A stretch of 64,000 nucleotides of DNA. Source: Haloferax elongans ATCC BAA-1513 (GTDB lineage: Archaea > Halobacteriota > Halobacteria > Halobacteriales > Haloferacaceae). The position numbers and the translations under genes were made by a program. The stretch spans positions 63,022 to 127,021 of the forward strand of contig NZ_AOLK01000015.1 of assembly GCF_000336755.1 (NCBI RefSeq). The letters are read 5' to 3'. Shown here piece by piece: positions 50,216 to 55,741 of this stretch; position 1 is the stretch's first letter; the number at the start of each line of letters is the position of its first letter. Under the pieces are notes generated by a model. That model saw only the letters and a program-made list of their open reading frames with translations, searched no databases and was not told the DNA's origin.

Positions 50216-50273
50216 GCCTCGACGACCTGCCTCGACGACCTGCCTCGACGACCTGCCTCGACGACCTGCCTCG
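50216..50273. repeat. 13-bp tandem repeat, 4.5 copies
   Basis: GCCTCGACGACCT is repeated four times without change (50216-50267), with half a fifth copy to about 50273. It lies between the thiolase promoter and the next gene. The 13-bp period is not a multiple of three, so it is not a coding repeat. Confidence 0.9.
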
Positions 50274-50340
50274 AATCACTGCCACCTGCTCTCGACCACG
50301 TCTCAAACCGTTTATCAGTCGGTCTTTCGAACGGGTTTCT

Positions 50341-50891: not shown

Positions 50892-51207
50892 GGGGTGGAC
50901 TAGGTCGGGCAGTTAGGCCCTGCTCTTCACCCGCGAAATAGGTCTTTAGCGGGGACCGAACACGGGCGCGTCCGGTCAGACCGGCGCGGGCCTCGGAAGC
51001 CAACGTAGAAACCTCGTCCTTCGGGGACAGCGGTTCCGCGTACCCCTTCCGCAGGGAAGGGTTCGCGCGGTTCATCGGTGGTACCCCGCCAGGCGCGGAA
51101 GCGAGCAGCGGACCATCGGACGTGCGTCGCTCGAGGGATCGCGGGGTGGAGAAGGCAACCGAGATTCCCCACGTCGGAACGCCGGGCAACCTCACTGTCC
51201 ACCCATT
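50892..51207 (+). ncRNA. ffs: Signal recognition particle 7S RNA
   Basis: About 316 bases, with ends that pair: GGGTGGAC at 50893-50900 and GTCCACCC at 51197-51204. The SRP S-domain helix 8 core CCAGGCGCGGAAGCGAGCAG is at 51089-51108 and matches the conserved asymmetric loop bound by SRP54. The Alu-like 5' domain with GGGCAGTTAGGCCC is near 50907-50920. It binds SRP19 and SRP54 and guides ribosomes making membrane or secreted proteins to the membrane. Ends are inferred from pairing and may be off by a few bases. tatA lies 190 bases downstream on the other strand. Confidence 0.93.
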
Positions 51208-54457: not shown

Positions 54458-55270
54458 ATGGAGTCCGTTTCGGTGCACGGGGTGGCGGTCACGGCGTTGG
54501 GGCTCGGAACCGCCCGCATGAGGGGTGACGAGTGTCGTCAGGCGGTGACGACCGGGTTGGAACTTGGGTATCGACACATCGACACCGCGCAGATGTACAA
54601 AAACGAGGATGCGGTCGGCGACGCGGTGGCCCAGTCGGGCGTCGACCGCGACGAGGCTTTCTTGGTCACGAAGATTCTCCGGGGGAACCTCCGATACGAC
54701 GACGTGCTGGATTCATTCGCGGAGAGCCTCGAACGCTTGCAGATGGAGTACGTGGACTTGCTGTTGATTCACGCCCCGAGTCGGTCGGTTCCCGTCAGTG
54801 AGTCGGTGCGGGCGATGAACGAACTGCAAGAGCAGGGAGCGGTGAAACACATCGGCGTCAGCAACTTCTCGGTGAGTCAGTTACGGGAGGCGATGCAGGC
54901 GTCCGCGACTCCGATACTCACCAATCAGGTCGAGTACCACCCGTTCAAGAGTCAGCGCAGCCTCTTGGAGTTCTGCATCGAAAACGACGTGTTGCTGACG
55001 GCGTACAGTCCGTTGAATCTGGGGTCCGGACTGTCGGACGAGACGCTCCAAGAGATTGGGGCTCGCCACGGAAAGACGCCAGCGCAAGTCGCCCTGCGAT
55101 GGCTCGTCCAACAGGAGCACGTCGCTGCAATCCCCAAGGCGTCTCAGGAGCGCCACTTGGCAGAGAACATCGATATCTTCGACTTCCAACTGTCCGAAGA
55201 CGAGATGGAGCAGGTCTTCGAGTTGCAAGGCGGGTTGCTCACCCGGCTTCGTTCGTTGCTGCAACTGTGA
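54458..55270 (+). CDS. Aldo/keto reductase (2,5-diketogluconate reductase-like)
   Basis: The 270-residue TIM-barrel reductase has the tetrad Asp42 and Tyr47 (RHIDTAQMYKNE), Lys72 (LVTKIL) and His105 (LLLIHAP). The NADPH site is seen in IPKASQERHLAENI. It reduces carbonyl compounds; the physiological substrate is unknown. Its leucine codons are often TTG, while neighbours use CTC/CTG almost only, a sign that it came from elsewhere. It ends two bases before the 54-bp repeat next to tRNA-Gly, so it may be cargo left by an integration there. Confidence 0.88.
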   Translation: MESVSVHGVAVTALGLGTARMRGDECRQAVTTGLELGYRHIDTAQMYKNEDAVGDAVAQSGVDRDEAFLVTKILRGNLRYDDVLDSFAESLERLQMEYVDLLLIHAPSRSVPVSESVRAMNELQEQGAVKHIGVSNFSVSQLREAMQASATPILTNQVEYHPFKSQRSLLEFCIENDVLLTAYSPLNLGSGLSDETLQEIGARHGKTPAQVALRWLVQQEHVAAIPKASQERHLAENIDIFDFQLSEDEMEQVFELQGGLLTRLRSLLQL

Positions 55271-55272
55271 GT

Positions 55273-55326
55273 TCGGAGTCTAACGACTCCTCGTTTGGTT
55301 CCGTTCAGAAAGTGCGCCGGCCGGGA
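55273..55326. repeat. 54-bp direct repeat, distal copy
   Basis: This copy is identical to 55631-55684. It includes the last 14 bases of the tRNA-Gly gene (GCGCCGGCC region) and 40 bases beyond it. It is placed as an attachment-site scar would be. A 16-base piece recurs at 55478-55493. Confidence 0.9.
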
Positions 55327-55540
55327 GTTCACCGATCGAAGCGAGGTGAACGTCGGTGAGGCTCTGCCTCACCGGGAGTCCCGCGAGCGTATGCGAGCGG
55401 GATATCGGGCGGCAAACGACCGCAGGGAGTCCCGTGAGCAACGCGAACGGGACGTCGGCGAGACGTGTCTCGCCGGAAGTGCGCCGGCCGGGACTGAGCA
55501 AACCGAAGGTTTGCGAAGGTCGGTGAAGCAGGGCTTCACC
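55323..55540. repeat. Tandem hairpin-pair repeat, four ~50-bp units with covarying stems
   Basis: Units begin at 55323, 55374, 55425 and 55490. Each has GGGA(C/G)T, hairpin A, GTCGG (ATCGG in unit 2) and hairpin B. Hairpin A stems: GTTCACC/GGTGAAC (55327-55351), GTCCCGC/GCGGGAT (55378-55403), GTCCCGT/ACGGGAC (55429-55453), GCAAACC/GGTTTGC (55498-55514). Hairpin B stems: GGTGAGGC/GCCTCACC (55355-55373), a weak GCGG/CCGC (55409-55423), GGCGAGAC/GTCTCGCC (55457-55474), GGTGAAGC/GCTTCACC (55522-55540). Stem sequence differs between units while pairing is kept. The loops of A share a GAxC...GCGA pattern. Confidence 0.8.
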
Positions 55541-55600
55541 GGGATTTGAACCTCGGTCGCTCTGCTCGCTTCGCTCGCGTCGCTCCCTGATTCAAATCCC
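55541..55600. repeat. Inverted pair of tRNA T-arm-like sequences
   Basis: GGGATTTGAA at 55541-55550 and TTCAAATCCC at 55591-55600 are perfect inverted copies and both look like a tRNA T arm. The 40-base loop between is a TCGCT-rich run. No full tRNA can be folded here. Confidence 0.7.
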
Positions 55601-55630: not shown

Positions 55631-55684
55631 TCGGAGTCTAACGACTCCTCGTTTGGTTCCGTTCAGAAAGTGCGCCGGCCGGGA
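55631..55684. repeat. 54-bp direct repeat, tRNA-proximal copy
   Basis: This copy spans the tRNA-Gly 3' end (55671-55684) and its downstream flank. It contains a nested hairpin, GGAGT/ACTCC; the outer CGGAAC/GTTCCG stem begins at 55625, just outside the repeat. On the minus strand this follows the tRNA and may also shape its 3' processing or termination. Confidence 0.9.
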
Positions 55685-55741
55685 TTTGAACCCGGGCCAT
55701 GAGCTTGGAAGGCTCAGGTCCTGCCACTAGACCACCGGCGC
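55671..55741 (-). tRNA. tRNA-Gly, anticodon UCC
   Basis: A complete cloverleaf of 71 bases: acceptor GCGCCGG/CCGGCGC with discriminator A, D arm with AGTGGCAGG, anticodon stem TGAGC/GCTCA around CTTCCAA (anticodon TCC), and T arm CCGGG-TTCAAAT-CCCGG. CCA is not encoded. The 3' end is duplicated in the 54-bp repeat and the 5' end recurs twice upstream, so the gene is the hub of the local repeats. Confidence 0.95.

Follow-up and report, generated by a model that had tools for sequence, protein, structure and literature searches.

Our analysis of the window, that is, the whole 64-kb stretch of DNA under study (G000:C15:63022-127021, from a Halobacteria genome of 3.95 Mb), suggests that a block of four double-hairpin units behind a tRNA-Gly gene is probably a row of four copies of one haloarchaeal mobile element, miniature, palindromic and non-coding, that inserts beside CGG-containing sites and accumulates behind tRNA genes. 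What is conserved among copies of the unit is structure, not sequence.

Results

The four-unit block and its setting

The block lies between a 270-aa open reading frame (54458-55270), which by its look we take to resemble an aldo/keto reductase, and the minus-strand gene for tRNA-Gly(TCC) (Table 1). A 57-nt direct repeat, made up of the 3' end of this tRNA and its trailer, encloses the block on both sides and, with shorter 3'-end copies, gives the array a duplicated tRNA 3' end on the side away from the gene. The 358-nt array holds no open reading frame longer than 86 aa, and hence no integrase gene. Elsewhere in the window we saw an archaeal SRP RNA gene (RF01857, 195 bits, 50893-51204) and 4.5 perfect tandem copies of a 13-bp sequence (GCCTCGACGACCT, 50216-50274); SRP RNA and tRNA are the only Rfam matches in the window.

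Table 1. Features of the array, in window positions. R1 is the covariance model of the double hairpin, built partly from units 1 and 3, with unit 4 left out of the building.
Feature	Position	Strand	Details
Unit 1	55323..55375	+	Hairpin A 55327-55351 (7 bp, GATCGAAGCGA loop; arms GTTCACC 55327-55333 and GGTGAAC 55345-55351); hairpin B 55354-55374 (9 bp); R1 73.4 bits
Unit 2	55374..55425	+	Hairpin A TCCCGC GAGCGTATGCGA GCGGGA, 55379-55402; GA-capped scan; R1 31.5 bits, weak
Unit 3	55425..55476	+	Hairpin A GTCCCGT GAGCAACGCGA ACGGGAC, 55429-55453 (arms 55429-55435 and 55447-55453); hairpin B 55456-55475 (8 bp; arms GGCGAGAC 55457-55464 and GTCTCGCC 55467-55474); R1 74.0 bits; GA-capped scan
Unit 4	55490..55542	+	GA-flanked hairpin GCAAACC GAA GGTTTGC, 55498-55514; hairpin B GGTGAAGC AGG GCTTCACC, 55521-55541 (arms 55522-55529 and 55533-55540); R1 32.8 bits
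tRNA-Gly (TCC), host gene of the array	55670..55741	-	ARAGORN; Rfam RF00005, 68.5 bits
57-nt direct repeat (tRNA 3' end and trailer), outer copy	55273..55329	-	Repeat search; 98% identical to 55631-55687
57-nt direct repeat, copy at the tRNA	55631..55687	-	Repeat search
tRNA-Gly 3'-end copy, far end of the array	55310..55326	-	Repeat search; AAGTGCGCCGGCCGGGA on the + strand
Second tRNA-Gly 3'-end copy, between units 3 and 4	55477..55493	-	Repeat search
Direct T-arm copy D	55541..55552	-	GGTTCAAATCCC on the tRNA strand; 12/12 identical
Spacer hairpin between I and D	55553..55588	-	Alternating GC pairs and tandem GA (GAGCGACGCGAGCGAAGCGAGCAGAGCGACC)
Inverted T-arm copy I	55589..55600	-	GGGATTTGAATC on the tRNA strand; 11/12

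The preliminary description of this DNA had reported four repeat units of roughly 50 nt with a set of named stems, and all of these stems are present. In our delineation a unit of about 51 nt runs from a GA-capped hairpin A through (G/C)TCG to a hairpin B. That each unit has two hairpins is borne out in so far as 55323-55545 holds 7 non-overlapping hairpins with stems of at least 6 bp (300 dinucleotide shuffles gave a mean of 0.68 and a maximum of 4), but unit 2 has just 4 bp in its weak second hairpin (GCGG CAAACGA CCGC, 55409-55423). The GAxC...GCGA loop formerly assigned to a 7-bp hairpin A is better written as a rule, namely stem, GA, 2 bp, a loop of 3-7 nt, 2 bp, GA, stem; in unit 4 the stem inside the GA...GA pair has 7 bp instead of 2. 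We dropped a kink-turn interpretation of the tandem GA on inspection, the 3-nt bulge being absent. A strict scan for the stem-GA-2bp-loop-2bp-GA-stem arrangement returns 2 sites in the 64-kb window, both inside the four-unit block, and since uniform shuffles of the window average 1.3 sites, these are notable by position and not by number. Folding, which had been proposed as a check, supports the structure: as RNA, 55310-55560 reaches -138.1 kcal/mol (z = -6.4), a value matched by 0 of 200 shuffles.

Covariation

Because R1 finds loci by structure, pairing at those loci is no independent support. The covariation set consists of 12 homologous units from arrays of the window's genus, picked by position and not by pairing. 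These units align almost gap-free, and across them 96.3% of cells are paired in the two-hairpin structure. Both sides have changed in 12 of the 18 base pairs (shuffled mean 7.1), and there are 41 double-changed cells against 12.3 in shuffles; neither figure is attained in any of 500 shuffles, and the signal is lost if the partner is shifted by one column. The unpaired GA...GA beside the 2-bp inner helix is constant, and one pair of the inner helix itself covaries (CG, UA). The earlier suggestion that structure rather than sequence has been kept thus stands. Its alternative, in which one arm of a stem is a copy of its partner, may hold for the inverted copies of tRNA and gene 3' ends.

Spread of the unit

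The covariance search that had been recommended for further copies finds many of them: R1 matches 84 of 116 Halobacteria genomes at E<=0.01, so that a want of structured copies elsewhere cannot be held against the pattern. At E<=0.001 it matches 20 of 26 Halobacteria and, in the same run, 0 of 132 genomes from the rest of the phylum, a zero that has to be read with the far fewer first-look candidates in many of those genomes, as expected of a different base composition. Among the best 30 R1 loci, 17 are linked to tRNAs and 13 do not lie beside them. The unit is antisense to the tRNA in 16 of the 17 linked loci, an orientation bias that may follow from the asymmetry of the target TCCCGG. In contrast to most young mobile families, near-identity is often lacking among the copies of a single genome.

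We also agree with the preliminary description in finding no named element of such a design. Six dispersed loci gave no Rfam match at the gathering score, and no description turned up in a literature search that missed most subscription journals. Similar hairpins occur at five further loci (L251, L260, L261, L265 and L280, near 1300-1600), where a conserved GC-rich flank common to several genomes is perhaps an undescribed non-coding RNA; a reading of these loci as RNase P RNA was dropped, there being no Rfam match.

Arrays behind tRNA genes

On the tRNA strand the array of the window runs from the tRNA and trailer through an inverted T-arm copy (I), a spacer hairpin, and a direct copy of T-arm and 3' end (D) to further modules, each of which ends in a copy of the 3' end of that tRNA. 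Many other tRNAs of the genome are followed by an array on this plan: of its 49 tRNAs, 19 have a downstream inverted T-arm match (at least 10/12, within 300 nt) and 1 has an upstream one; with tRNAs exchanged between loci, the mean is 5.4 matches and the maximum 10. In a genome of another family (G032) the corresponding figures are 16 of 26 downstream and 2 upstream, with a maximum of 7 after swapping. Many tRNA 3' flanks (L040-L087 in the former genome, L208-L237 in the latter) carry an inverted T-arm, a spacer hairpin and a direct 3'-end copy that match the resident tRNA.

Such agreement between the inverted arms and the resident tRNA is what one would expect if the arrays were a by-product of replication, in which fold-back template switching at hairpins copies the strand's own end and so creates a direct-inverted-direct series, the loops being leftovers and nothing being mobile. 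We consider this unlikely. Spacer types at tRNA flanks are common across the class Halobacteria, and spacer and unit sequences (CAGGGAG...CGACCGTGG; GGNNGT...TCGG) are common to different tRNAs, genera and families, which disfavours purely local copying. Of 292 Halobacteria genomes, 232 contain the pattern TTTGAAYC-N15-45-GGTTCAAA, and only a few contain its reversed form. By our count, of 242 genomes of the phylum outside the class about 15 had hits. A tRNA lies close by in 29 of 30 sampled loci of this pattern, oriented with the palindrome on its 3' side.

Could the hairpins instead function as RNA, within extended tRNA transcripts or antisense ones, and act in stability, termination or processing? 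Transcription in Haloferax volcanii can end at hairpins (PMC7237163), and one strand is favoured in our data, since 79 of 91 T-arm palindromes fold more stably on the tRNA strand than on the antisense strand; in these 91, G.U outnumbers A.C by 57 to 27. GA-capped hairpins likewise prefer the tRNA strand, by 11:4 in the window's genome and 13:0 in G032. The double-hairpin units, however, are antisense to the tRNA at nearly all linked loci, number zero to several at a single orthologous locus, and are found inside coding genes as well. We therefore regard such a function as improbable, and the structured RNA array that the preliminary description had entertained is not the best reading, because of this antisense placement and because the unit recurs in unrelated places.

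The composition of the arrays differs between relatives. At the orthologous tRNA-Gly(CCC) locus, congeners carry zero to four modules in varying order and with recurring lengths (e.g. 65, 114, 130, 167 nt), and the window's own tRNA locus has an array of other composition in a congener (L194). Within arrays, a copy of the tRNA 3' end is either intact (GGTTCAATTCCCGGTCGGCGCA) or interrupted by exactly 45 nt that lie between two TCCCGG. Unit 4 is such an interrupted case, ATCCCGG[45]TCCCGGCCGGCGCA, and units 1-3 come in succession, each adjoining CCGGGA or a variant of it. With unit 4 splitting its target and units 1-3 at TCCCGG-like sites, the block is most simply taken as four neighbouring copies of one type of element. 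The order of events in the block is one that we infer, and tandem duplication together with recombination could also produce neighbouring units without new insertions.

The duplicated tRNA 3' end, with the original trailer shifted to the array's far end, also recalls the attachment sites of integrases. Haloarchaeal integrated elements have partial tRNAs at their flanks and carry XerC/D integrases (PMC7921747; PMC3119063), so that tRNA-targeting elements or viruses might have left tandem attR remnants, the hairpins being attP arms or decoys that protect the tRNA. This we consider unlikely as well: there is no integrase at the arrays examined, the unit also lies inside protein genes, the viral contigs lack the haloarchaeal type of palindrome, and there was no match in phages and one weak match in plasmids. 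Several viral contigs (L140, L146, L149, L153, L159, L166 and L170) do hold near-perfect palindromes of their own, TTTGAACC(A/G)TG...CA(C/T)GGTTCAAATCC around CCTCTGG/CCAGAGG, with spacers unrelated to the haloarchaeal element; pattern matches in viral contigs with GC above 50% resemble unrelated palindromes and were set aside.

One degenerate T-arm palindrome (L110, G169:C4:13589-13626) lies between reading frames that look like an ADP-ribosylglycohydrolase and a DUF262 protein, with no tRNA in the 53 kb examined. It is possibly the end of an island.

Copies in protein genes and empty sites

The unit occurs in frame in UvrA, GARS/PurD, MoaA, an acyl-CoA dehydrogenase and the tail of COX1, and its reading frame is constant. 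In UvrA of one genus, GSSASDASGTSSEVSSD is added between VLVD and GTSITEV, and when UvrA without the insert is used as query, 57 of 58 matching genomes align straight across. In moaA of G035, a 48-nt insert is flanked by ACGGTGG and is absent from the congeners G003 and G012; empty and filled sites are in all cases compared between species. The MoaA loop appears to be generally variable, since the GA hairpin is present only in the insert that bears the element, three of the other MoaA inserts having been examined. A tblastn search of plasmids with the inserted peptide returned nothing. In L283, a reverse-strand reading frame, the C-terminal tail of COX1 carries two copies of the peptide, with SGTSSDLRSDG occurring twice.

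Four genomes show a plan like that of the tRNA arrays where a DUF5815 gene (assigned by Pfam in L263) ends: the gene end is followed by an inverted gene end, a unit and a direct gene end. The direct repeats there score 22-36, and shuffles reach at most 10. At the DUF5815-like loci L252, L256, L262 and L263, around 1340-1700, the inverted copy tracks the local sequence of each genome. This arrangement is a further point in favour of fold-back copying during replication, but the clean, in-frame insertions in uvrA and moaA count against it.

Flanking direct repeats are clear in moaA (ACGGTGG) and in the tRNA arrays (TCCCGG). Over 45 loci, the string common to both ends averages 5.36, compared with 4.46 for mispaired ends and a maximum of 4.96 in 200 trials, a modest excess.

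Discussion

How could a unit whose letters are so free to vary come to stand both behind tRNA genes and inside proteins? On our preferred reading, that of a mobile palindromic element, selection would act on the fold of one strand of DNA (or RNA), and the letters of the stems would drift with pairing kept. Insertion would take place beside a CGG-containing site and leave a direct repeat of about 4-8 bp, such as those at tRNA-Gly and in moaA. Copies that arrive in the right frame would be read through as a soluble peptide, GGxASDASGTSS...SDG, and for this reason would be tolerated inside proteins. Accumulation behind tRNA genes would follow from the many TCCCGG-like targets that repeated tRNA 3' ends offer, and recombination between the 3'-end copies would then allow modules to be gained, lost and reordered. 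We infer that the element moves, that it passes through a single-stranded intermediate, that an enzyme acts on it in trans, and that its presence at tRNA flanks is neutral. In a bolder version, which we think rather doubtful, the class-wide element spreads in a folded, single-stranded form and rewrites its arms from the adjacent gene end, be it a tRNA T-arm or the 3' end of a protein gene, such that shape is inherited and sequence is taken from the target. The preliminary description was right that structure is what has been conserved; it missed the setting at tRNA 3' ends and the dispersed in-frame copies.

If the reading as a mobile element is correct, a seemingly undescribed family of miniature elements, selected for shape, is present in most Halobacteria, where it adds peptides to housekeeping proteins and marks the 3' flanks of many tRNAs. 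As an archaeal counterpart of the Rickettsia palindromic elements, it would offer natural pairs of empty and filled sites in a host group with good genetics (Haloferax), so that the enzyme that moves it could be sought. It would also suggest that haloarchaeal partial tRNAs beside full tRNAs are often parts of arrays and not scars of prophages.

Several known systems share features with the element. Rickettsia palindromic elements are likewise short palindromes, spread within one lineage, that lie in frame in unrelated protein genes and are read as a peptide in a constant frame (PMC10969869). They measure about 150 bp and belong to Rickettsia, whereas the element described here measures about 51 nt, has two hairpins, belongs to Halobacteria, is stacked behind tRNA genes, and has stems that covary far beyond what shared sequence would allow. 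We do not file it with the Rickettsia family because length and host differ. With REP/BIME sequences and MITEs it shares miniature size, the lack of coding capacity, imperfect hairpins, intergenic arrays and, in moaA and the tRNA arrays, short flanking direct repeats (PMC10969869), but it differs in sharing no terminal inverted repeats with a known IS, in standing in frame in coding genes and in having arrays tied to tRNA 3' ends. The duplicated tRNA 3' end is shared with haloarchaeal tRNA-targeting integrative elements, and partial tRNAs beside full copies have been described in Haloferax gibbonsii (PMC7921747). Unlike those elements, the units here are gene-free and 45-190 nt long, alternate between inverted and direct copies, are absent from the haloviruses searched, and have hairpins conserved class-wide. 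In the attC arrays of integrons, modules lie between repeated sites, hairpins are conserved by shape, and the order of modules varies among relatives. By analogy the arrays described here work in a similar way, with repeated sites, shape-conserved hairpins and varying order, but they hold no cassette genes, no IntI is seen, and the repeated site is the 3' end of a tRNA.
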